Source: Pseudomonas abietaniphila
GTDB lineage: Bacteria; Pseudomonadota; Gammaproteobacteria; Pseudomonadales; Pseudomonadaceae
Length of the DNA stretch: 64,000 bases
Direction of reading: 5' to 3'
NCBI RefSeq assembly: GCF_900100795.1
Contig: NZ_FNCO01000015.1
Coordinates: forward strand, 1 to 64,000
Shown here: in pieces, positions 12,929-25,411 of the stretch
How the letters are laid out: each line of letters opens with the position of its first letter
How positions within the stretch are numbered: the first letter of the stretch is position 1
Made by a program: the position numbers and the translations under genes
The notes under the pieces: model-generated
Seen by the model: only the letters and a program-made list of their open reading frames with translations
What the model was told of the DNA's origin: nothing
The model's database searches: none

Positions 12929-15862
12929 CTATTTGCCTTTGCCTTTGCCGGAACCCGAGGAGCCCGAGCCGCCGGAACCCGATCCCCCAGAGCCGGACCC
13001 GCCGGCACTCGAACCACCCGAACCTGTAGTGGGCGTGGTCGTGGTTACGGCTGCCGCCAGCTTGACCGAAGGACCGCTGCCGTCGCCGTCGTGGTAGGTA
13101 GGCAACGCGGCAGAGGCGACATACCCCACGCCATCCCAGGTGGGCATCGGTGTCGGCATCAGTTGGAATTGACCCGGGTGCTCGATGTCCCAACGCAGCA
13201 GCATCGAGTTGTCCTCATGCTGGGTGTTGTGGCAATGCTCCATGTAGGTCCCGGCGAACTCGCGGAAATGGATCGCCATCTCAACGTTGTCGCCACTGTC
13301 GGTGCCGATGCGGTAAACGTCCTTACGCGCCCATTTTTCCCACTCAGGTGGCGCCTTGCCGCCCCGACTGAGGATGATCCCTTCCTCGAAGTGCACGTGC
13401 ACCGGATGGGTCCAGCCGTTGCCGCCGTTCTGGATTTTCCACACTTCCAGCGTGCCGGTGCCCTGATAGCCGGACGGTTCTGCGCCGTTGGCCAGGTGCA
13501 TACCGGCAGACAATCTGCGTGGGTCCATGGTGAAACCCAGACCGCCGTCGGTCTTGATGGTCCAGGGCACCGAATCCGTGCCGTCGGAACGACCGAAGAT
13601 AAAGGTGCGATGACGTGCCTGGCCCAGCAGCGCGATGTCAGCGGCGTTGTCTCGGTGCAGGGTCAGCGGAATCATCGTCTTGCCTTCAGGCTTGCCCGGT
13701 TTGGCCGGCTCGTACACCACCGGATCCATGCTCAGGTCCTGCCCGGTATAAGGCTTGACGTTGATCTGCATGAACTTGCCCACCACCGGGTCCCCCTTGT
13801 CCCACTGCGGCCCCTTGCTGCCTTGCTTGATGACGGCCAGGTACTTTTCGGACAACACGTCCGCGAGCGGCACTTCGCCTTTGGGCCCCTTACCGGTGTC
13901 ATGCTCCATGACGTTGACGAAGAACAGCTTGTCCCCGGCCTTAATGCCGTTTTTCCCGAAGTTGATGATGATGTCGTAGCGTTCGGCAATGCCCTGATTG
14001 GGCAGGATGCCGAAGTTGTTTTTCAGGTCGCCGTCACCGTCCAGGTCCAGGGTGCCGTCGAATGGCACGGTGTGTTCCATGATGTTGCCGTCGTTGGCGA
14101 TCATGTGGAAAGGCACCCGGGCGTAGGACACGCCGGAGTCTTTCGGCCCAGGGAACTCTCCGCTGTTGCCTTTGATTTCCCGCACCACGGCAATCTTCAC
14201 GTATCGCGACACCGAGCCATTGAGGATGCGGAAACGGTAACTGCGGGCGCGCACGTCCAGGTAAGGCTTGTAGCTCCAGTTCACAACCATTTCATCGCCG
14301 AGGAAGCCGTCGGTGTTGAACGGGTTGAACCACAGTTGCCCGGCCTGATCCCACGCCTTGTCGGCGACGGTCAGGTTGACGTCGTAGTCGCGGTTGCCCC
14401 ACGCCAGGGTCGAGCCACTGGGGAATCGCAGGTTGACGCCGTCGTCGATGGCTTCGTTGCCACGGTCCAGGGCGCTGTAGTAGTTCATCATCGCCGCGTT
14501 GCCCTTGTAGACGTTCTGGGCAGTGAAATCCATCATGTGATCGTGGAACCAGTGGGTGCTCATGGTTTCGCGCCAGTCACCCCGGATCTTGATCGTCCCG
14601 TGATCACAGGTCTTCATACCGGGCGACTCATCATTGACCCACAGGGTTTCACCCGGCGCACACGGAAACGCTGCGCGTGGGTCCTTGGCGTTGGTGTTGA
14701 TGGTGTCGTAACCCGCGAGTTGCATCGGCCAGCGATAGTCGTAGTACTGGCCCGGAAAGAAGAACGCGTTGGCATAGCCGTCACTTTCAGCCGGGTTATG
14801 ACCATTGTGTTCGTGGGTGGAGATGGTGTGCAGCCCAAAGCCTTTGTTGGCCGACGGATCGATCGGCAAGCCGTTGTAGTGACGCATCAACACCGGCTGG
14901 CCGTAACGCACCATCAGCAGTTTGGGCGGCAGCGTGCCGTCGAATGTCCACACCGAGTTGTGTTCCTGAACCGGCATCAGCGGGTGAAGGCGCACGCCGA
15001 TGCCACTGGCGCTACCGCCGTGGTTGGTGCTGCCGTCGGGGTAGTAGTTCAAACCACCGGGTCCCCACTCCCCGCCTTTGTAATCGTGTAACTGCAGGTG
15101 ATCGCGAAAACCGCTGTTCGAATGAGCGCCGGTTTGCACGGTCTTGTAGGCAATCTGCGGGTAGAACTCATTCCAGCGCTGATGTGACCAGCCTTTTCCT
15201 GGCGGACGCCCTTCGGCGGGCGCGTCCACGCGACGGTTCAGGAAATCCTGAATCTGGGCCTGCCACGGGTTGCGGTCCAGTGAGTTGGCGAACTGCGTCG
15301 GGAATGGCGTCAGACCCGGTTGCGCGAGAAAGGCGGCCAACGCTTCAGGCGAGGGGCCACTGCGAGCCACGTTGGTGGGGTCCTGCGCAGGACCTGGGCC
15401 GAGTGTTGGAACCGGGAACGGAATCAGCGACGGCGAGGCGGTCGGGTCGAGCTTGGTCGGCCCGAACTCTTCAAACAGCAACACTGCCTGGGTGAAAGGT
15501 TGAGCGCCGAACAACGGGCTTGGCTTGCCATTGGTGGGGAAGTTGAAACTGGTTTGCGCCGAGGGCGGCAGGACGTTTTCGATCCTTGTGGTGGCCCGCG
15601 TGCCTTTGACGTCGTTCGGCAGGTCGATGGCGCCTTCGTTGGCTTCCGGCAGTGTCAGTAGATTATTCAGTGCGGCGGCCGGATCGGCAGGCGGGTCGTA
15701 ATACGCAGAGGGGTCAGTGGGAGGGGGTTGATCTTCGTTGTCGATCGGCCCGGCCTGGACACCGGTCAGCCCCATGGTCAGGGCGATCAATGCCGCGGAA
15801 GATCCGCGCAAAAGCTGAAACCCGTGGAGGGGGGGAAACTTTAAACGCGCAGGTTGTTTCAT
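12929..15862 (-). CDS. Large secreted multicopper oxidase (McoA/MofA-like)
   Basis: 977 residues from the ATG at 15862 (GAAGGTG 6 bases upstream is better than the ATG at 15886). A signal peptide ends near GVQAG. The four copper-ligand stretches are present: HEHNGH (residues 350-355), HWFHDH (437-442), HPVHVH (819-824) and YMEHCHNTQHEDNSML (from 874), giving one type 1 and a type 2/3 trinuclear site. The length, insertions and a DLDGDGD acidic loop (near 606) resemble bacterial Mn(II)-oxidising enzymes rather than CueO or laccases. The C-terminus is a Gly/Ser-rich tail of about 30 residues. Mn oxidation is an inference; phenol, Cu or Fe oxidation remain possible. Operon with the Sco-cytochrome c gene. 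Confidence 0.88.
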   Translation of the reverse strand: MKQPARLKFPPLHGFQLLRGSSAALIALTMGLTGVQAGPIDNEDQPPPTDPSAYYDPPADPAAALNNLLTLPEANEGAIDLPNDVKGTRATTRIENVLPPSAQTSFNFPTNGKPSPLFGAQPFTQAVLLFEEFGPTKLDPTASPSLIPFPVPTLGPGPAQDPTNVARSGPSPEALAAFLAQPGLTPFPTQFANSLDRNPWQAQIQDFLNRRVDAPAEGRPPGKGWSHQRWNEFYPQIAYKTVQTGAHSNSGFRDHLQLHDYKGGEWGPGGLNYYPDGSTNHGGSASGIGVRLHPLMPVQEHNSVWTFDGTLPPKLLMVRYGQPVLMRHYNGLPIDPSANKGFGLHTISTHEHNGHNPAESDGYANAFFFPGQYYDYRWPMQLAGYDTINTNAKDPRAAFPCAPGETLWVNDESPGMKTCDHGTIKIRGDWRETMSTHWFHDHMMDFTAQNVYKGNAAMMNYYSALDRGNEAIDDGVNLRFPSGSTLAWGNRDYDVNLTVADKAWDQAGQLWFNPFNTDGFLGDEMVVNWSYKPYLDVRARSYRFRILNGSVSRYVKIAVVREIKGNSGEFPGPKDSGVSYARVPFHMIANDGNIMEHTVPFDGTLDLDGDGDLKNNFGILPNQGIAERYDIIINFGKNGIKAGDKLFFVNVMEHDTGKGPKGEVPLADVLSEKYLAVIKQGSKGPQWDKGDPVVGKFMQINVKPYTGQDLSMDPVVYEPAKPGKPEGKTMIPLTLHRDNAADIALLGQARHRTFIFGRSDGTDSVPWTIKTDGGLGFTMDPRRLSAGMHLANGAEPSGYQGTGTLEVWKIQNGGNGWTHPVHVHFEEGIILSRGGKAPPEWEKWARKDVYRIGTDSGDNVEMAIHFREFAGTYMEHCHNTQHEDNSMLLRWDIEHPGQFQLMPTPMPTWDGVGYVASAALPTYHDGDGSGPSVKLAAAVTTTTPTTGSGGSSAGGSGSGGSGSGGSGSSGSGKGKGK

Positions 15863-16241
15863 GTGATTCACCTTCAACTCATGCACAGGGGCATTTGTGT
15901 TTCATCCGACTGCCCTGGTTAAGCGCTGCGTGTCGAAGGCTTTTAGCGGCCCGTCGCACGGAGAAGCGCCTGCAGGTAGTGGGTGAAGGGGCAAATCCCT
16001 TGCCAGAGTTGAAGCACGGCTTGATAAAGGCAAAACGATGGCAAGCCAACGCGGCTAAGTCGTGGCTTTCACTGAAAGATGTCGTAACAATTTAATGAGG
16101 AAAGTTGGCATGGACGTTGGCGGCTGCGGGGACCTTGCCCCGCAGACATGGGGAAATTCACAAGATGTTGGGGATTTGAATGGGTCATGACCGGCCCGGG
16201 AAGCCGACGTTCGCGGCTTCGCCCGGTCCGGTCGTTACGCC

Positions 16242-16961
16242 TCAGGCACCGCCGCGATTGTCGCCCGGTTCGCCCCTGGCATGATTGCCGCGGTCGTCCC
16301 CCACCTCACCCAGCGCATGGTTGCCCCGGTCATCGCCGATCTCGCCGGCCCTGTGAACACCGTGGTCGTCGCCGATTTCGCCGGCCCTGTGAACACCGTG
16401 GTCGTCGCCGATTTCGCCGGCTCTGTGCACACCGTGGTCGTCGCCGATTTCGCCAGACCGATGAACGCCTCCGTGGTCATCGCCCGCTTGTGCGTGTTCG
16501 CCGCGATGGCCAGCGTCGTGATTGCCATGGTCGTCGCCGCGAGCGCCGTGATCGTTGCCGTGGTCGTTGCCGCCGTGACCATTGCCGGCGCTGTTGCCGC
16601 CGCCACTGTGGCCGCCGCCGGAACCACCCGAACCACCACCGCCACTGCCGCCTCCGGAACCACCGTTACCGCCGCCGTGACCGCCGCCGCCACCCCCGTT
16701 ACCGCTGCCGCCACCGCCGTTGCCACCGCCGCCATTACCGCCGCCGCCACCTCCGTGACCTCCGCCTCCGCCTCCGCCTCCGCCACCATTACCGCCGCCA
16801 CCTCCGTTACCGCCACCACCACCACCACCACCACCACCACCACCACCACCACCGTCTTTGGCGTAGGCGCTGGAATGAGAAATCGAGTCGGGGATCAGGA
16901 CAGTGGATGCGGACAGCACCCCTCCGATCGCAAGTGCCAGAATTGCTTGTCTGAATTGCAT
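16242..16961 (-). CDS. Secreted glycine-rich protein with DDHG-type 12-residue repeats
   Basis: 239 residues from the ATG at 16961, where GGTGGAGG gives a good ribosome-binding site. Residues 1-34 look like a signal peptide ending near AYA. Residues 37-125 are almost pure Gly with Asn, His and Ser. The C-terminal half is rich in Asp, His and Gly and contains about six tandem 12-residue repeats of the form GDDHGVHRAGEI (DNA 16331-16480). Nothing enzymatic is seen. The Asp/His-rich repeats could bind divalent metals; the position upstream of a multicopper oxidase makes that worth testing. Opposite-strand frames through this gene are low-complexity shadows. Confidence 0.75.
   Translation of the reverse strand: MQFRQAILALAIGGVLSASTVLIPDSISHSSAYAKDGGGGGGGGGGGGGGGNGGGGGNGGGGGGGGGGHGGGGGGNGGGGNGGGGSGNGGGGGGHGGGNGGSGGGSGGGGSGGSGGGHSGGGNSAGNGHGGNDHGNDHGARGDDHGNHDAGHRGEHAQAGDDHGGVHRSGEIGDDHGVHRAGEIGDDHGVHRAGEIGDDHGVHRAGEIGDDRGNHALGEVGDDRGNHARGEPGDNRGGA
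16331..16480. repeat. In-frame 36-base tandem repeats
   Basis: About four near-identical 36-base units (TCGCCGATTTCGCCGGC.. type on the plus strand) followed by degenerate ones, all inside the glycine-rich gene and coding 12-residue repeats. Confidence 0.85.
16813..16853. repeat. (CCA)n trinucleotide tract
   Basis: About 13 uninterrupted CCA triplets on the plus strand, coding the longest Gly run of the glycine-rich protein. Slippage would change the run length without shifting the frame. Confidence 0.9.
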
Positions 16962-17462
16962 AACTACCTCCACCTTCTTGTTCTGGTCATAAACCGCAAA
17001 CAGAGCCGGTGCAAAACGAAGGCCATCGCCCCATGGCAATCAACGCTTCAGCACATCTCGCGACAACGCAGACAACAGCGTGTGGCCCCCAGAGACCGTG
17101 TGCGCACAGGTACCGTGAGATCCGGCGGCTGGATCATCCAGCGCCGGACGGTGTTCTTGGGGTGAACACGCCAACGGCGGCTAATATTCATTTACGCCTA
17201 CGAACGGTCATTCAGGATTTTTTCGGCAGCGCTCTTTTCATTTGCGCATTAGCTCGTCAACATACGCGCCCACTCCTAACGGGCTCGACGTTAATAAACG
17301 CAAATGATCGCGTTTCCTGACGTCGCCTTTTGTATTAAATAGAGACAGAACAAACACTTCCGAATGCCCGTTGCCTAGATCATCAATGATGTTGAATTGA
17401 TATGGCGCTAACGCGTGCGGCCCTCTAAAGTGATCTCACTCTCTGATTTCAGGACGAAATAG
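16962..17462. other. Intergenic with an isolated hairpin, no gene
   Basis: 500 bases between divergent genes, so it holds the promoters of both. A strong imperfect hairpin lies at 17121-17147 (TCCGGC..GCTGGA with a 3-base loop) without a T-run, of unknown role. No convincing reading frame. Confidence 0.45.
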
Positions 17463-18811: not shown

Positions 18812-19477
18812 ATGATTGGAATCATCGTCCCCGCGCACAACGAAGAAGATTTTCTGGATGACTGCATCAAGTCATTGGTTGCCGCTTCCGGTCACGAAGG
18901 CCTGGGGGGCGAGGCGGTGGAGATCCTGATCATGCTCGATGACTGCTCCGATAACTCCGAACGGATTGCACGCAGCCATGACGTGTCGGTGCACACATGC
19001 CAACACCGCAATGTCGGCATGACGCGCGCTGCCGGGGCGCAGTTGATGCTCGAGCGCGGCGCTCGCTGGCTGGCGTTTACTGACGCCGACACCGTGGTGC
19101 CGTATGCGTGGCTCTCCGAGCAGGTGGCGTTCGGGGCTGATGCTGTCTGTGGGATTGTCGAAGTGAGTGACTGGTCCGAGCACTCCGACCAGGTTCGCCA
19201 GCGTTACAACGCGCTGTACCGTCCGGTCGACGGACACCGGCACATTCACGGCGCAAACCTGGGGGTATCCTCGGCGGCGTACCGGCGTGCCGGAGGGTTC
19301 AGGGCGTTGAAGGCCCATGAGGACGTGCACCTCGTCAAGGACCTGGAGCGCACTGGCGCGGCCATTGTCTGGACCGCTCGAAACAGTGTCATGACCAGCG
19401 CGCGCAAGCATTCCAGGTGCAGGGAAGGCTTTGGCGATTATCTGAATTCACTGGCGACCCAAGCGTTATTGGGCTAA
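18812..19477 (+). CDS. Family 2 glycosyltransferase
   Basis: About 221 residues. It starts with the GT2 signature IGIIVPAHNEEDFLDDCI, contains ILIMLDDCSDNS, and the metal/nucleotide-sugar motif AFTDADTVVP; HGANLGVSSAAYRRAGGF is the acceptor-side block. There is no membrane segment, so it is the short cytoplasmic type. An in-frame TTG at 18806 is an alternative start; ribosome-binding sequence is weak for both. In gene content it fits the acyl-CoA dehydrogenase, PIG-L and methyltransferase trio 3.5 kb downstream, with mntH and a copper group lying between. Donor and acceptor are unknown. Confidence 0.85.
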   Translation: MIGIIVPAHNEEDFLDDCIKSLVAASGHEGLGGEAVEILIMLDDCSDNSERIARSHDVSVHTCQHRNVGMTRAAGAQLMLERGARWLAFTDADTVVPYAWLSEQVAFGADAVCGIVEVSDWSEHSDQVRQRYNALYRPVDGHRHIHGANLGVSSAAYRRAGGFRALKAHEDVHLVKDLERTGAAIVWTARNSVMTSARKHSRCREGFGDYLNSLATQALLG

Positions 19478-19520
19478 CCCTGACTACGCACACTGAAGCT
19501 GCGCATACGGCACTGAACGG

Positions 19521-19550
19521 CCTTGATCTGTGCACCCTTGATCTGTGTAC
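19521..19550. repeat. Tandem 15-base duplication upstream of mntH
   Basis: CCTTGATCTGTGCAC followed directly by CCTTGATCTGTGTAC, 34 bases before the mntH start. It could be a regulatory site or a slippage product; it does not clearly match a known manganese or Fur box. Confidence 0.45.
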
Positions 19551-19583
19551 ACGGCGGCCCTCACCTGAGCGGGACAGCAACTG

Positions 19584-20912
19584 ATGCAACCGATAAAGAA
19601 CCGGGCCAACCCCGGCGATGACACATTGGGTGGCGGCATGCCCAGTGCCAGTGTCGCCGTGCCCAAGACCGGGAACTGGTTCAAGCGCCTGCTGGCGTTT
19701 ACCGGCCCCGGGTACATGGTTGCGGTCGGGTACATGGACCCGGGCAACTGGGCGACTGACCTCGCCGGTGGATCGCAATTCGGTTACCTGCTGCTTTCCG
19801 TCATTCTGTTTTCCAATCTGATGGCAATCGTCTTGCAGGCGTTGTCTGCACGCCTGGGCATCGTGACCGGCTGGGATCTGGCCCGCGCATGCCGCGAACG
19901 CTACAGCCGTCCCGTCTGCATCGCGTTGTGGATCGCCTGCGAAATCGCAATCATCGCCTGCGACCTGGCAGAAGTGATCGGCACTGCGATCGCTCTGAAC
20001 CTGCTGTTTGGGATTCCACTGGTGTGGGGCGCAGTGATTTCCGCCATCGACGTCTTTCTGATTTTCTTGCTGATGGGCAGAGGGTTCAGGGCGCTGGAAG
20101 CCTTTGTGATTGCGCTGTTGCTGATCATCTTCGGCTGCTTCGCGATTCAGATGGTCCTGGCCCGTCCGGACATGGCCGAACTGTTAGCCGGGTTCATCCC
20201 CCGGGCCGAGGTGGTCACCAACCCGGCAGCGCTCTACCTGGCCATCGGCATCATCGGCGCTACGGTCATGCCACATAACCTGTACCTGCACTCCTCCATC
20301 GTCCAGACCCGGGCCTATCCCCGAACCGACGAAGGCCGGCGGATCGGCCTGCGCTGGGCGGTCACCGACAGCACCATCGCCCTGACCCTGGCGTTGTTCG
20401 TCAATGCCGCGATCCTGATCACGGCCGCAACGGTCTTTCACAAGGCCGGCAAGACCGATGTGGTGGAAATCGAGCAAGCCTACCATCTGCTTTCGCCGAT
20501 GCTGGGGGTCGGGATCGCATCAGCGCTGTTTGCGGTGGCGCTGCTGGCATCGGGGATCAACTCGACGGTCACCGCGACGCTGGCCGGGCAGATTGTCATG
20601 GAAGGCTTTCTCAGCCTCAAACTCCCCGGTTGGGTCCGTCGCTTGCTGACCCGAGGATTGGCGATCATTCCCGTGGTCGTGGTCACCAGCCTGTACGGCG
20701 CCGAAGGCACTGCAAAACTGCTGGTACTGAGCCAGGTGATCCTGTCGATGCAGCTCCCCTTCGCCATCGTGCCACTGGTGCGTTTCGTGTCCGATCGCAA
20801 GCTGATGGGGAGTTTCGTGACCGGCCCGGTGTTAACGACGTTGTCCTGCGCCATCACGCTGTTGATCATCGGCTTGAATCTGGTGCTGCTGGTGGGAATG
20901 TTCCGGGCGTGA
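19584..20912 (+). CDS. mntH: Nramp-family divalent metal transporter MntH
   Basis: 442 residues with eleven or so hydrophobic segments. The two Nramp hallmark sites are intact: DPGN (D52-N55) in the first helix and MPHN (229-232) in helix six, together forming the metal site. MntH imports Mn(II), and to a lesser extent Fe(II), with protons. The ATG at 19584 has only a weak GGGAC upstream. The gene stands alone between GT2 and the copper group on the opposite strand. Its position near a candidate Mn-oxidising enzyme is noted but they are not in one operon. Confidence 0.93.
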
Positions 20913-20960
20913 GCCTCGACTCAAGAGGGGCAGAACACAGATTCAATGCCGCCGACCCGA

Positions 20961-21002
20961 CCGCATTCGCTGCCCTCGTAACCTCGGACGTCTCCTACAG
21001 GG
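20961..21002. repeat. Single arm of the window-start palindromic repeat
   Basis: Starts CCGCATTCGCTGCCCTCG and runs to CTACAGGGTC; it matches the reverse complement of the right arm of the elements at 1-579. The other arm is missing, so this is a remnant or half-element. Confidence 0.8.
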
Positions 21003-21041
21003 TCCGTGTCGTTCTGACGACTTGAGGAGGACGCTCATACG

Positions 21042-21070
21042 GTGGGAGCGAGCGTGCTCGCGAATTCGGC
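21042..21070. repeat. REP-type palindrome
   Basis: GTGGGAGCGAGCGTGCTCG followed by CGAATTCGGCG, a typical Pseudomonas REP sequence, 40 bases after the single arm at 20961. Confidence 0.75.
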
Positions 21071-21155
21071 GGAGCTGACACTTCAACGTCCGCTGACAGG
21101 CCTTGTTTGCAACGAAAAAAGGTGCCGGTCGTTGCAACCGGCACAGGTGCTTACT

Positions 21156-21641
21156 TCACTTCATGGCGCCGTGATCGTGGCCCATGTCCATCTTTTCCAT
21201 CATCGCGCGGGCGGGGGCTTGCACCTCGATGGTTTCGCGTACGCCCTTGTCGTTTTCGACTGTCAGGGTCAGCGGGACCTGATCGCCCTCCTTGATCTGC
21301 TTGACCAGGCCCATGAGCATCACGTGGTAACCGTCCGGGTCAAGGGATACGGTCTTGCCGGCAGGCAATGCCACCGAATCCACCGGCCCCATGCGCATGA
21401 CGTCGTTGGTCATGCTCATCTCATGAATCTGCACGTCCTTCGCGGCTGGCGAGCTGACGCTGAGCAGCTTGCTGTCGCTGTCCGCCGTGACACGCATGAA
21501 CGCACCCGAGGACGGCTGACCGGGCACCGAGGTGCGCACCCAGGCGTCTTCCACCTTGGTTTGCGCGATGGCCGACAGACTGCAACCCGCCAACAGCGAC
21601 GCCAACAGAACCCGGGCAGTTTTGGACAACAGAGCAGTCAT
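21156..21641 (-). CDS. PCu(A)C periplasmic copper chaperone
   Basis: 161 residues from the ATG at 21641, which overlaps the sco stop as TGATG and has GGAGG 8 bases upstream. It has an N-terminal lipoprotein-like signal (SLLAGCSLSA). The copper site pattern is present: M(x)10M with IHEMSM..VMRM and later YHVMLMGL, giving the His/Met ligands. Relatives insert Cu(I) into the CuA or CuB centre of cytochrome oxidase together with Sco. The C-terminal HDHGAMK adds possible ligands. Operon sco - pcuC. Confidence 0.9.
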   Translation of the reverse strand: MTALLSKTARVLLASLLAGCSLSAIAQTKVEDAWVRTSVPGQPSSGAFMRVTADSDSKLLSVSSPAAKDVQIHEMSMTNDVMRMGPVDSVALPAGKTVSLDPDGYHVMLMGLVKQIKEGDQVPLTLTVENDKGVRETIEVQAPARAMMEKMDMGHDHGAMK

Positions 21642-22249
21642 CAGCAGACCTCCATGACGGTGAGCAGATCTTCCGCGCATTGTTTGGCGGAAAGTGAGGG
21701 CGACAGGCCGAGGCGTAGATTACCCCGTGAATCGAACACGAAACTGGTGGCGGTGTGTGACATGGTGTAAGTGTCGCCGACAGGGACCTTCTCATAGAAC
21801 ACGCCAAACTCCTTCGCCACTGCCCGGGTTTGCTCCAGCGTGCCGCGCAGGGCCACGAAGCCTGGGTCGAACTGCTTGACGTAAGCGTCGAGTATCTCGG
21901 GCGTATCGCGCTCGGGGTCGACGGTGATAAAGATCACTTGCATGGTCTTGCCGTCTTCGCCCATCAGCTTCTTGGCCTGAACCGCACGGGCCAACGCAGT
22001 CGGGCAGACCGACGGACACTGGGTGAACCCGAAGAACACCACCGGCATCAGTCCGCGATAGCTGGACAGTGTCTTGACCTCACCCTGGGTGTCGGTGAGT
22101 TTGAAGGTACGGCCCATGATCTTGTTGCTCAGATCCTTGCCGTATTTGAAATCGAGCGCGGTGGTCGAACCATCGCAACCCGCGAGAAGCCCGAGGCCCA
22201 AAAGCCCCAGACCCGAGACCACCTGGCGGCGGGTCAGTAAATCATTCAT
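21641..22249 (-). CDS. Sco1/SenC/PrrC family copper chaperone
   Basis: 202 residues. An N-terminal TRRQVVSGLGLLGLGLLAGC segment combines a twin-arginine-like start with a lipobox (C25), so it is probably membrane anchored on the periplasmic side. The thioredoxin-like domain carries CPSVC (C78, C82) and the third copper ligand H165 in TMSHTATSF. Sco proteins metallate or reduce the CuA site of cytochrome c oxidase. It is followed with overlap by the PCuAC chaperone. Confidence 0.92.
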   Translation of the reverse strand: MNDLLTRRQVVSGLGLLGLGLLAGCDGSTTALDFKYGKDLSNKIMGRTFKLTDTQGEVKTLSSYRGLMPVVFFGFTQCPSVCPTALARAVQAKKLMGEDGKTMQVIFITVDPERDTPEILDAYVKQFDPGFVALRGTLEQTRAVAKEFGVFYEKVPVGDTYTMSHTATSFVFDSRGNLRLGLSPSLSAKQCAEDLLTVMEVC

Positions 22250-22386
22250 GTGACGAACTCTCTGAAGCAGCAGCCAGCGCCAACGCCGGCCTTGACTCGT
22301 CTCGCTTCTCGCCCTGACGGCAGAGCCCTGCCCGAAATGGCGAAGAAGGGACGAACGCTAAACACCGTGTTCATGCCACGCCACGC

Positions 22387-22764
22387 TCAGGGCGCCTGCG
22401 GGGCGATTCCGGGAAAGGTCTGTCGAGGTGGCCTGCGCAGCCGGTAATCGGACCGTGGAAGGGATTTGTACGTAGGGCGCGTCCGCCAGCTCAGCCCGAT
22501 GAAGAACACCAGCGCCAATACGGCCGTGCCGGCAAACGCACAATCGGTCATTGAGAGTTTCATCAATTGCGCATGATCGCCCATCTGCGCCATGTCCATG
22601 CGCCCTGAAAGCTCATGGTGCTCGCTGCACTCGACGCCCGCGTTCAGTTGATTGAACGCCCGCAGCATCTGCCCGTGGCTGAGGCTGCACACAAGCCCAC
22701 TGAACAGCACGATGCCGTACAGCATCCAGGCGATAAGCGATTGATGGGTTCGGACGAATTTCAT
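22387..22764 (-). CDS. DUF2946-type membrane protein
   Basis: 125 residues from the ATG at 22764. A first hydrophobic segment (residues 10-28) is followed by a Met/His/Cys-containing loop (VECSEHHELSGRMDMAQMGDH and TDC), a second segment (about 68-83) and a basic tail. DUF2946 proteins occur beside copper-handling genes in pseudomonads, and the loop composition is compatible with Cu(I) binding. The gene lies 137 bases upstream of sco on the same strand and is likely part of the same unit. Ribosome-binding site is poor (GAGG 15 bases away). Confidence 0.75.
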   Translation of the reverse strand: MKFVRTHQSLIAWMLYGIVLFSGLVCSLSHGQMLRAFNQLNAGVECSEHHELSGRMDMAQMGDHAQLMKLSMTDCAFAGTAVLALVFFIGLSWRTRPTYKSLPRSDYRLRRPPRQTFPGIAPQAP

Positions 22765-23022
22765 GGGGCGACATTCTACCTCGCCACGCCCCATGGCATC
22801 TGCCCGGGCCGGACTGCCGGGTGCGACAAAACCGCGCAGGGCCATTCCTCTGCGCAGAGACCTTGGCGACACCAAGGCCTGCGCACCTGCCGTCCCGCGC
22901 AAACGCAGCCGCCGAAGTTTTTTTGAACCCCACCCCGCGCCAGGTGCCTCATTTCATGAGCAGGCTTTCATGAACAGCGCACGCACCTCGCGTCGACGTT
23001 GAACCTGGCGGAGACACTGAAT

Positions 23023-24054
23023 ATGCGTGATGACGTAGATAGCCTTGAATCGGTGCTGGCAGCCTTCGCCCGCCGTCCCAATGCGCCCATGACCGATGAA
23101 CGACTCTGTGAAGCGATGCGCCTGTGCATGGCGCGCGACCTGGACCGCTTGCCGTTACCCGGTAGTGGCGAAACCTTGGCACGGTGGCAGCAACTGGCCC
23201 ACGTGGCCGGAATCGACCTCGCGTTGCTGAAACTGTACGAGGGCCATACCGATGCGCTGGCCATCCTTCAAGAACTCGGCTGCGCGCCGTTTTCCGACCC
23301 AGGCATCTGGGGTGTCTGGGCTGCCGAGCCGCCAAACGCGCGGGTGATCGTCAGTGAGCGGCAAGGCGATCAAGTGCGCCTGAATGGCACCAAAGCCTGG
23401 TGTTCCGGTGCACAACAGATCGACTACGCACTGATCACCGCCTGGACCGAACAGGGTCAACCGCAACTGATTGCTGTCCGCCTCAATGAACACGGAGTCA
23501 GTGTTGATGGGCGAGGCTGGCAGGCGGTGGGCATGGGCAGCACCGCAAGCGTCGATGTCCATTTTGAACACGCGACAGGTCACTGCGTCGGAGAATCCGG
23601 CGCTTATCTGCAGCGTCCAGGTTTCTGGCAAGGCGGCGCGGGTATCGCGGCGTCCTGGTATGGCGCCGCCGTTGCGCTGGCGCGGTCCCTTCACCGACAG
23701 CGTCAGCAGGGTCGCGCTGACCCGCACGCCGACGCCCATCTGGGATCGGTGGACGCCGCGCTGCTCGGGGCCGCTGCAGCACTCAGAGAATGTGCGGCAT
23801 GGATCGATACCCATCCGCACGCCGATGCTCGACTGCCCGTTCAACGCGTTCGCGCCCACGTCGAAATGGCGGTTGAGCAGGTATGCAGGCATGTCGGCCG
23901 TGCGCTGGGCGCGACGCCATTCTGCCGCGATCCGCATTTTGCGCGCCTGGCGGTGGACCTGCCGGTGTTCATCCGGCAAAGCCACGCGGAACGTGATCTG
24001 GCGCAATTGGGTCAACTCCTGACCCATAGCACAACCGAGGATTGGTCGTTATGA
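23023..24054 (+). CDS. Acyl-CoA dehydrogenase-like flavoprotein
   Basis: 343 residues from the ATG at 23023 (GGAG 10 bases upstream; an in-frame TTG at 22999 is less likely). It resembles acyl-CoA dehydrogenases: an all-helical N-terminal part, a middle beta part with the LNGTKAWCSGAQQIDYALITA block, and a helical C-terminal part. It is shorter than the usual 380-400 residues and lacks the obvious C-terminal catalytic Glu/Arg signature, so it may act on a non-standard substrate. Its stop overlaps the ATG of the PIG-L gene. Together with it and the methyltransferase it forms a small biosynthetic operon. Confidence 0.8.
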   Translation: MRDDVDSLESVLAAFARRPNAPMTDERLCEAMRLCMARDLDRLPLPGSGETLARWQQLAHVAGIDLALLKLYEGHTDALAILQELGCAPFSDPGIWGVWAAEPPNARVIVSERQGDQVRLNGTKAWCSGAQQIDYALITAWTEQGQPQLIAVRLNEHGVSVDGRGWQAVGMGSTASVDVHFEHATGHCVGESGAYLQRPGFWQGGAGIAASWYGAAVALARSLHRQRQQGRADPHADAHLGSVDAALLGAAAALRECAAWIDTHPHADARLPVQRVRAHVEMAVEQVCRHVGRALGATPFCRDPHFARLAVDLPVFIRQSHAERDLAQLGQLLTHSTTEDWSL

Positions 24055-24812
24055 ATCAGGCAGCTCCCTTTGGCGTCAGTGGCACCCCGTTGAGCGAATG
24101 GCGCAACAGCGTCGCCTTGAGCGGCGTTCGGCCCATTGATGTCGACGAGTTGGTTCCACCGGGTGCACGACTGGTGGTGCTGGCGCCCCATCCCGACGAC
24201 GAAGTGCTCGCCTGCGGCGGACTCCTGGCAGCCATGGCCAACCGCCAGGAAGACGTGCAGTTGATTTCCGTGACCGATGGCGAGGGCAGTCACCCGGACT
24301 CCGCGCAATGGCCGCGTTCGCGGCTGCGTACCGAACGGCGTCGGGAAAGCGAGCGGGCCGTCACCGCGCTGGGCTTCGATCTGCCGCGCTTCGCTTGGCA
24401 GCGGCTGGGGATGAGCGACGGTCAGGTCGCTGACCGCGCTGATGCTCTGATAGCACTGCTGAGCGAGGATTTACGCTCGACCGACGTGCTCGTGACCACA
24501 TGGCGTCATGACGGCCACTGCGACCATGAGGCCGTCGGTCACTGTGCTGCCCAGGCCGCCGCGAACACGGGCGCCACCCTGCTGGAGATTCCGGTGTGGG
24601 CCTGGCATTGGGCCGAACCCAACGACCCGCGGATTCCCTGGCAGCAGGCGCGAAAATTCATGCTCAGCGACGCCCAGTTGCAACGCAAGCGTCGGGCAAT
24701 CAACGCCCACGCCAGCCAGTTACACGACGATGTCAGCACCGGCGCGGCGCCCGTGCTCGACACCGTCACCCTGGAGCGACTGCTTCAACCGTTCGAATTG
24801 GTGTTCCTGTGA
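24051..24812 (+). CDS. PIG-L/LmbE family de-N-acetylase
   Basis: 253 residues from the ATG at 24051 (ATGA overlap with the previous stop). Zinc-site motifs are PHPDDE (residues 46-51) with the catalytic Asp, and HCDHEAVGH (156-164) giving the third ligand. Family members remove acetyl groups from GlcNAc-containing compounds such as GlcNAc-PI, mycothiol and bacillithiol precursors, and antibiotic intermediates. Here it probably deacetylates an amino-sugar intermediate, made perhaps by the nearby GT2. The end overlaps the methyltransferase start as GTGA. Confidence 0.88.
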   Translation: MNQAAPFGVSGTPLSEWRNSVALSGVRPIDVDELVPPGARLVVLAPHPDDEVLACGGLLAAMANRQEDVQLISVTDGEGSHPDSAQWPRSRLRTERRRESERAVTALGFDLPRFAWQRLGMSDGQVADRADALIALLSEDLRSTDVLVTTWRHDGHCDHEAVGHCAAQAAANTGATLLEIPVWAWHWAEPNDPRIPWQQARKFMLSDAQLQRKRRAINAHASQLHDDVSTGAAPVLDTVTLERLLQPFELVFL

Positions 24813-25411
24813 GCTTGCCTGCCGACTATTTCGACGAACTGTTCGCCGACAGCGATGACCCTTGGGCTTTTCGTACCCGCTGGTATGAGCAACGCAAGCG
24901 CGACCTGACCCTTGCGGCGCTGCCCCGCCAACGCTATGAACGCGTGTTTGAACCGGGGTGCGCGAACGGCGAATTGAGCCTGCGTCTGGCGGAGCGCTGC
25001 GACCAGCTGCTGTGCATGGACATGAGCACCCGCGCGGTTGAACTGGCGCGCGCACGGCTGCGCGAGTATCCGCGAGCGCAGGTCGTGGAGGGATGCTTGC
25101 CCCAGGATTGGCCAGAAGGCCAGTTCGATCTGATCGTGATCAGCGAGTGGGCGTATTACCTGGAGCCGGCGTTGTTCATCCAGGTCATCGAACGGCTCGC
25201 CGCGTGCCTGACACCAGACGGCGCCGTATTGGCGTGCCACTGGCTGCATCCGATCGACGGCTGCCCCATGCAGGGCGCAGAGGCTCACGCACTCCTCACC
25301 CAATACCTGCCGCTCACACGCACGTTGCGGCACGAAGAGACGGACTTTTTACTGGAGATGTGGAGCAATCACACTGCAGGAATCGATCTGTCGGAACAGG
25401 TTCGCCGGTGA
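24809..25411 (+). CDS. NodS-like SAM-dependent methyltransferase
   Basis: 200 residues from a GTG at 24809 that overlaps the PIG-L stop by 4 bases; longer in-frame starts lie inside the PIG-L gene and have no coding logic. The N-terminus LPADYFDELFADSDDPWAF is characteristic of the NodS-type family; motif I is VFEPGCANGELS (about 46-57), followed by MDMSTRAVELARAR and VISEWAYYLEP. NodS N-methylates the deacetylated terminal glucosamine of Nod factor; here, directly after a deacetylase, an amino-sugar N-methyltransferase is a fair guess. Confidence 0.85.
   Translation: MSLPADYFDELFADSDDPWAFRTRWYEQRKRDLTLAALPRQRYERVFEPGCANGELSLRLAERCDQLLCMDMSTRAVELARARLREYPRAQVVEGCLPQDWPEGQFDLIVISEWAYYLEPALFIQVIERLAACLTPDGAVLACHWLHPIDGCPMQGAEAHALLTQYLPLTRTLRHEETDFLLEMWSNHTAGIDLSEQVRR

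Follow-up and report, generated by a model that had tools for sequence, protein, structure and literature searches.

A conserved four-gene set in Pseudomonas abietaniphila, possibly for a small amino-sugar glycoside made beside trehalose

The stretch of DNA analysed here, referred to as the window, comprises 64,000 nucleotides of Pseudomonas abietaniphila (contig NZ_FNCO01000015.1, positions 1 to 64,000). It carries genes for a small glycosyltransferase of family 2 (GT2), a flavoprotein resembling acyl-CoA dehydrogenases (ACAD), a PIG-L/LmbE-type N-deacetylase and a NodS-like methyltransferase dependent on S-adenosylmethionine (SAM). The last three form a trio in which the stop codon of one gene overlaps the start codon of the next, and GT2 lies upstream of this trio, with mntH and a copper group in between. 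An initial annotation, made from the letters alone, had already named these genes, their coordinates, the overlaps and the position of GT2, and both sequence and Pfam searches confirmed them (Table 1). The four genes are a conserved unit that frequently lies next to genes of trehalose or alpha-glucan metabolism.

Conservation of the four genes as a unit

Relatives of the PIG-L protein of some kind occurred in 98 of the 119 genomes of the genus sample. Twenty stretches were fetched around genus PIG-L matches: nine of them (L038, L040-L046 and L048; L and G numbers are our handles for loci and genomes) carried an uninterrupted ACAD-PIGL-NodS-GT2 set, and the three with the closest PIG-L proteins (L033-L035) showed the split order of the window, PfpI-GT2-MntH-PCuAC/SCO1-ACAD-PIGL-NodS. 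The remaining stretches held PIG-L alone or a broken or partial set. Since L033-L035 are split and nine other Pseudomonas loci keep the genes adjacent, it is in this lineage that GT2 and the trio came apart. The initial annotation had guessed at a disrupted cluster and proposed to look for GT2 beside the trio in other genomes; the guess was borne out, the four genes being adjacent in most relatives examined.

The wider phylum sample comprised 398 genomes. Profile searches, scoring only the best candidates from a loose first pass, were evaluated at E ≤ 1e-25 for ACAD, GT2 and NodS-like and at E ≤ 1e-20 for PIG-L, and gave matches in 29 genomes for ACAD, 21 for GT2, 33 for NodS-like and 31 for PIG-L. 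All 21 GT2-positive genomes also had ACAD and NodS-like genes, and 19 had all four; the association of GT2 with ACAD reached a hypergeometric p of about 1e-28 when genomes were counted and about 4e-19 when genera were, neither value taking shared ancestry into account. The four genes co-occur more than by chance, and the lack of co-occurrence that the initial annotation had named as refuting a joint pathway was not what we saw. GT2 lay on another contig than the trio, well inside that contig, in G352 and G364. No GT2 passed the threshold in eight ACAD genomes. One is G254; the other seven fall outside the class of the window, where the related GT2 genes have lower scores (68-80 bits in L101 and L102).

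Outside the genus, 15 of 20 regions around ACAD matches held all four genes, two were without PIG-L, one was without GT2 and two had ACAD and NodS only. A larger set, made up of the 80 best of at least 511 matches, partly overlaps with the earlier loci, L155/L041 and L124/L096 being probably the same genomes. It comes mostly from Pseudomonas, Psychrobacter and Acinetobacter, so its 80 loci are not independent and lend a common pathway less support than their number suggests; since these three genera dominate, the separate lineages matter more. All four genes were present in 68 of the 80 loci, and the usual order in relatives was ACAD-PIGL-NodS-GT2. Over 114 loci, neighbouring genes stood on the same strand at most 150 bases apart in 106 of 107 ACAD-PIGL, 106 of 107 PIGL-NodS and 92 of 98 NodS-GT2 pairs, and the start codon permitted an overlap of 1 or 4 bases in 68, 54 and 76 of them, respectively.

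Sets of this kind occur in alpha-, beta- and gammaproteobacteria, and related or partial sets in Actinomycetota and Deinococcota. Plasmid or chromid records gave ACAD matches in Acinetobacter, Cupriavidus, Pandoraea, Comamonas, Legionella, Streptomyces, Kitasatospora and Embleya, and NodS matches in Deinococcus, Paracoccus, Sulfitobacter, Roseomonas, Bradyrhizobium, Rubrobacter and others. Two Deinococcus records, Bradyrhizobium and Paracoccus are annotated with ACAD, PIG-L and methyltransferase genes and a GT2-family gene close to them, and Roseomonas with only the trio; these annotations were confirmed by profile matches, which were weak for GT2. Kitasatospora had all four genes, with GT2 in two pieces. 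A Rubrobacter plasmid carried, in this order, a PF01522 polysaccharide deacetylase (92 bits), ACAD, methyltransferase, pyridine nucleotide-disulphide oxidoreductase and GT2, and no PIG-L match was found at this locus. One locus titled Streptomyces cinereus (L137) has a GC content of 0.44 and Acinetobacter/Psychrobacter-like genes; it resembles Moraxellaceae, is probably mislabelled or contaminated, and is counted among the 23 ots loci below.

The mntH gene that separates GT2 from the trio is no core part of the pathway, and the copper group is not part of it. An Nramp gene also lies beside the quartet in Legionella lytica (L237:8075-9343), with superfamily-level likeness only to the one in the window, and we regard this as coincidence. 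A conserved transporter partner was likewise rejected: genes of the major facilitator superfamily (MFS) that adjoin the quartet in Acinetobacter, Bradyrhizobium, Deinococcus and L038 showed no mutual matches at E ≤ 1e-15 covering half of their length, and only the Acinetobacter MFS gene recurs, within Acinetobacter.

Table 1. Genes and features of the window discussed in the text
Feature	Position	Strand	Size	Basis and remarks
GT2 glycosyltransferase	18812..19477	+	221 residues	ATG start; PF00535 59.9 bits, 4e-16 (cut-off 23.3)
mntH (Nramp), between GT2 and trio	19584..20912	+		PF01566 3.4e-133; same place in L033-L035
Copper group (PCuAC, SCO1, DUF2946-like), between GT2 and trio	21156..22764	-		PF04314 and PF02630 over cut-off; PF11162 just under
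ACAD-like flavoprotein	23023..24054	+	343 residues	PF02770 34.8 bits, 1.9e-8 (middle domain only; cut-off 33.3)
ATGA overlap, ACAD stop and PIG-L start	24051..24054	+	4 bases	sequence
PIG-L/LmbE-type N-deacetylase	24051..24812	+	253 residues	PF02585 88.3 bits, 7.8e-25 (cut-off 28.2)
GTGA overlap, PIG-L stop and NodS-like start	24809..24812	+	4 bases	sequence
NodS-like SAM-dependent methyltransferase	24809..25411	+	200 residues	PF05401 52.3 bits, 8.7e-14 (cut-off 24)
Large open frame, multicopper-oxidase-like	12929..15886			named by reading the sequence only; Gly/Ser-rich tail
Long repetitive open frame	16242..17039	-		rich in Gly/His/Asp; adjoins the frame at 12929..15886

Properties of the four proteins

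The model of the GT2 protein (predicted local distance difference test, pLDDT, 94.7) shows a GT-A fold, and its PDB matches were GT-A glycosyltransferases. Residues D91-A-D93, H146-G-A-N149 and E170-D171 were invariant in 34 aligned homologues. PF00535 score, acidic metal motif and fold place the protein in the GT2 family; neither the model nor the PDB matches identified the donor. The best NCBIfam matches were TIGR04283, an arsenosugar glycosyltransferase family (56.8 bits, cut-off 182), and MftF (35.8 bits, cut-off 280), and the protein belongs to neither. No 19-residue stretch with a hydropathy above 1.6 was found in any of the four proteins, compared with 117 in the MntH control, and all four look soluble.

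PIG-L is a member of the PF02585 superfamily by score and by motif. The motif H-x-D-D-E was present in all 111 cluster-type PIG-L copies above 80 bits (110 HPDDE, one HADDE), the window copy having HPDDE, and the window genome contained one match only to its PIG-L protein. The nearest named solved relatives were diacetylchitobiose deacetylases (E 4.7e-12, 49 bits). The trehalose/GlgE island of Pseudomonas contains another PIG-L paralogue, which had HPGDE in 13 of 15 copies (e.g. L044:10909-11670, L045:10772-11533 and L039:9060-9818); HPDDE was kept in the other two, L052 and L177, the latter filling the PIG-L slot of the quartet. The change to HPGDE presumably removes the catalytic base, and this paralogue may have lost its activity or taken on a different one. 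Since a NodB-family PF01522 enzyme takes the place of the deacetylase in Rubrobacter, the PIG-L step can be suggested, from this one record, to take an acyl group off the nitrogen of a sugar.

The methyltransferase has a close solved homologue, PDB 4isc (E 2.4e-79), listed by the name "Methyltransferase" only; the next match, and the best named solved relative, was NodS (3ofj, E 1.7e-16). It is a member of the NodS fold family PF05401, and not NodS proper, reaching 65.2 bits with NF041650 against a cut-off of 300. The deacetylation and N-methylation logic put forward in the initial annotation is plausible in the light of the conserved HxDDE motif, the diacetylchitobiose deacetylase and NodS relatives and the Rubrobacter PF01522 enzyme.

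The flavoprotein model (pLDDT 82) has a full ACAD fold, with a best Z score of 27.1 over 322 residues (root-mean-square deviation 3.6). ColB1 (Z 27.1), TdsC (26.6) and KijD3 (25.9) were among the matches, as were DszC, MsuC and DnmZ. Dehydrogenases and monooxygenases lay close in Z, the nitrososynthase KijD3 being level with many dehydrogenases, and structure comparison did not separate the two classes. In a low-identity alignment, all 19 family members had Gln in the column of the C-terminal catalytic Glu. At the helix-G position, where isovaleryl-CoA dehydrogenase has its catalytic Glu, the residue before the conserved Arg varied and was Glu in four of the 19. The eight aligned ACADs of the window genome had Glu (two), Asp (two) or neither (four) in the C-terminal column, the last four having Glu-Arg at helix G. 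As far as such a low-identity alignment can tell, the family appears to have no conserved catalytic Glu at either site. Because Gln replaces the catalytic Glu of many acyl-CoA dehydrogenases, the oxidising role that the initial annotation had given to the flavoenzyme is only a candidate for its chemistry.

Trehalose and stress genes around the set

Neighbouring genes were counted within 10 kb, at identities of at least 30% for otsA/otsB and at least 45% for GlgE/TreS/TreY. Among the 80 loci, otsA/otsB were found in 23, GlgE/TreS/TreY in 12 and Ku or LigD in 24; the corresponding counts in 20 control regions at round coordinates were 0, 1 and 0. The link to trehalose genes is frequent, not universal. 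Many Pseudomonas carry the set inside a TreZ-MalQ-TreY-GlgX...GlgB-TreS island. otsB-otsA stands beside it in many Acinetobacter and all Psychrobacter loci, in L120 and L091 as otsB-otsA-quartet on one strand; six Acinetobacter loci (L110-L115, L111 being from the A. baylyi type strain DSM 14961) and L140 have no ots genes nearby. Elsewhere, Comamonas antarctica has the order otsA-ACAD-PIGL-NodS-GT2-otsB (otsA confirmed by PF00982, otsB by PF02358), Paracoccus treZ-GT2-ACAD-PIGL-MT and Legionella lytica otsB-GH65-PIGL-MT-GT2-ACAD, MT being the methyltransferase. Cupriavidus has the set with GlgE and catalase, Bradyrhizobium with Ku/LigD beside it.

Within the window's class, OtsA or TreY scored over the cut-off in 21 of the 22 genomes with ACAD, as against 11 of 20 relatives negative for ACAD (Fisher p 0.003), a comparison that loses weight since the 20 negative genomes were the first listed near relatives and no random sample. 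The sole exception, G254, is also without GT2 and its ACAD has diverged. In the window genome TreY lies on another contig than the quartet, and the quartet genes were not found in the 19.5 kb around it. This contig (contig 23, L210) has GlgX-TreY-MalQ-TreZ near its start; weak TreY-model matches in GlgB- and TreS-sized frames lie about 610 kb away on it, and the trehalose island may be split.

Expression data come from Acinetobacter baumannii, where ACICU_02432-02435, annotated as glycosyltransferase, SAM-dependent methyltransferase, LmbE protein and putative acyl-CoA dehydrogenase-related protein, are listed as one operon in Table 2 of PMC5660220. In two colistin-dependent mutants these genes were 31- to 62-fold down, together with otsAB (12- to 50-fold) and catalase (22- to 31-fold). 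The hypothetical gene ACICU_02436, whose number adjoins those of the quartet, has a very high expression level and was down 138- to 227-fold in the same mutants (PMC5660220); it is a possible extra partner. The four genes are also mentioned in PMC6240043, and the sections of both papers covered here propose no function for them. For P. aeruginosa, PMC8084333 describes, in the part covered, protection by trehalose against osmotic stress and by GlgE-derived glucan against desiccation stress. The word "deacetylase" is absent from the main texts of the trehalose-gene papers PMC8084333, PMC12442406 and PMC6372562, as are "acyl-CoA" from that of PMC8084333 and "acyl-CoA dehydrogenase" from those of the other two. 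The literature searched, with most subscription journals outside its coverage, held no account of the function of this combination of glycosyltransferase, deacetylase and tailoring enzymes.

A proposed pathway and its alternatives

From these data the four genes may be read as encoding a single conserved pathway in the cytoplasm that produces a small amino-sugar glycoside alongside trehalose or alpha-glucan during stress, a reading whose prospects of being right or wrong we judge to be evenly balanced. The order of the steps, the substrates, the number of methyl groups, the product and its role are what we infer. Most likely, GT2 would transfer an N-acetylated amino sugar of the N-acetylglucosamine (GlcNAc) type to a soluble acceptor, PIG-L would remove the acetyl group from the glycoside, and the NodS-like enzyme would methylate the freed amine one or more times. 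The ACAD-fold flavoprotein would add a further redox step, probably without the usual acyl-CoA dehydrogenase base. The product, made alongside trehalose or alpha-glucan, could serve stress or stationary-phase survival, for instance in osmotic or desiccation protection.

Several observations weigh against this proposal, besides the two sampling limits already given. PIG-L and NodS-fold enzymes accept many substrates, so the amino-sugar chemistry is only presumed. The gene set itself is not always complete: G370 and G437 were without PIG-L at the threshold, 12 of the 80 loci had no GT2 or PIG-L nearby (11 without GT2, eight of them Caballeronia, and one without PIG-L), and a third Deinococcus record had the methyltransferase without annotated ACAD or PIG-L. 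As for the neighbourhood, none of the tested ots, tre, Ku or LigD genes was found in 21 of the 80 loci, ots or tre genes were near only four of the 20 loci outside the genus, the P. putida group has LigD/Ku without trehalose genes within 10 kb, and the one control region that scored (L206) did so for trehalose genes. In the A. baumannii mutants, 33 genes altogether dropped more than 10-fold (PMC5660220, part covered), and the shared change in expression may therefore reflect a general regulator. A metabolite, an enzyme assay or a mutant phenotype for the pathway was not found in the literature searched.

The frequent association with trehalose genes also fits a pathway whose substrate is trehalose itself or an alpha-glucan oligosaccharide, supplied directly by OtsAB or TreYZ and turned into a modified (amino) trehalose or a capped glucan. 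The clusters with otsA/otsB or treZ, the many Pseudomonas sets lying within the TreZ-TreY-GlgX...GlgB-TreS island and the OtsA or TreY genes of nearly all ACAD-positive genomes agree with it. We nevertheless find it unlikely, given the P. putida context, the separate contigs of quartet and TreY in the window genome and the lack, among recurrent neighbours, of an aminotransferase or acetyltransferase to put nitrogen on trehalose. Alternatively, the ACAD-like protein could be a monooxygenase that hydroxylates the freed amine like a nitrososynthase, the product being a specialised metabolite and not a solute. The invariant Gln, the matches to DszC, TdsC, MsuC, KijD3 and DnmZ and the pyridine nucleotide-disulphide oxidoreductase of the Rubrobacter cluster point in this direction. 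Dehydrogenases, however, match equally well, and the Glu column, filled by Glu in only two of the eight own-genome ACADs, does not separate the classes. With no flavin reductase annotated beside the proteobacterial sets inspected, and with recurrent housekeeping stress neighbours unlike those of a typical natural-product cluster, we hold such an N-oxygenation to be distinctly unlikely.

Lipid-linked or polymeric GlcNAc is a further substrate of PIG-L and NodB-type enzymes, and GT2 enzymes would suit the modification of a cell-envelope glycolipid or polysaccharide. We rejected this improbable route, and the glycolipid of the initial annotation was not borne out: the four proteins have no hydrophobic segment, and no acyltransferase, flippase, ligase or other acyl or export gene recurs in the annotated neighbourhoods. 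A known thiol-cofactor route of the bacillithiol or mycothiol type, which had been raised at the outset as a refutation, is very improbable and was likewise rejected. PIG-L does resemble BshB1 (45.4 bits), BshB2 (39.1) and MshB (26.3), but the curated cut-offs of 182.5, 195.25 and 224.35 bits are far higher. MshA and BshA are GT4 enzymes, in contrast to the GT2 found here, and no cysteine ligase is annotated in the neighbourhoods inspected, whole genomes not having been searched for one.

Returning to the amino-sugar glycoside, a more specific version would make the quartet an undescribed and phylum-spanning route to a soluble N-methylated glucosamine glycoside, possibly quaternary and betaine-like, or N-oxygenated, as a new class of compatible solute made beside trehalose for drying, salt and stationary phase; we put this forward tentatively and think it rather doubtful. 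If the amino-sugar reading is right, many bacteria of environmental and clinical origin would share a metabolite not yet described: Pseudomonas, Acinetobacter, Psychrobacter, Burkholderiales and some alphaproteobacteria, besides the related sets of Actinomycetota and Deinococcota. In A. baumannii at least, its genes are expressed along with the trehalose genes. Such a metabolite would have consequences for how these bacteria withstand drying and osmotic stress, and four gene families known by domain names only, the solved 4isc among them, would gain functions.

Among known systems, NodC-NodB-NodS shares the logic of glycosyl transfer, N-deacetylation and N-methylation; the methyltransferase is a relative of NodS, and one Rubrobacter set even has a NodB-family deacetylase. 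In nearly all sets seen, however, PIG-L replaces NodB, GT2 is a small soluble protein and not a membrane NodC-type synthase, the NodS model stays far below its cut-off, and an extra ACAD-fold enzyme and the trehalose/stress context are added. An acyltransferase such as NodA was not among the genes scanned or annotated in the neighbourhoods, whole genomes not having been searched for one. TIGR04283 and MftF are the nearest families of small glycosyltransferases, yet GT2 is a member of neither, and the diacetylchitobiose deacetylases of the LmbE family are the nearest named solved relatives of PIG-L, but at low similarity. DszC/TdsC, MsuC, KijD3, DnmZ, ColB1 and acyl-CoA dehydrogenases share the fold of the flavoprotein over at least 300 residues, at only 11-20% identity and with Gln here in the catalytic-Glu column. 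MshA-MshB and BshA-BshB, finally, make a glucosamine glycoside with a cytosolic glycosyltransferase and a PIG-L deacetylase, the layout also proposed here, where a methyltransferase and a flavoprotein stand in place of the cysteine ligase and PIG-L scores far below the cut-offs of their deacetylases.

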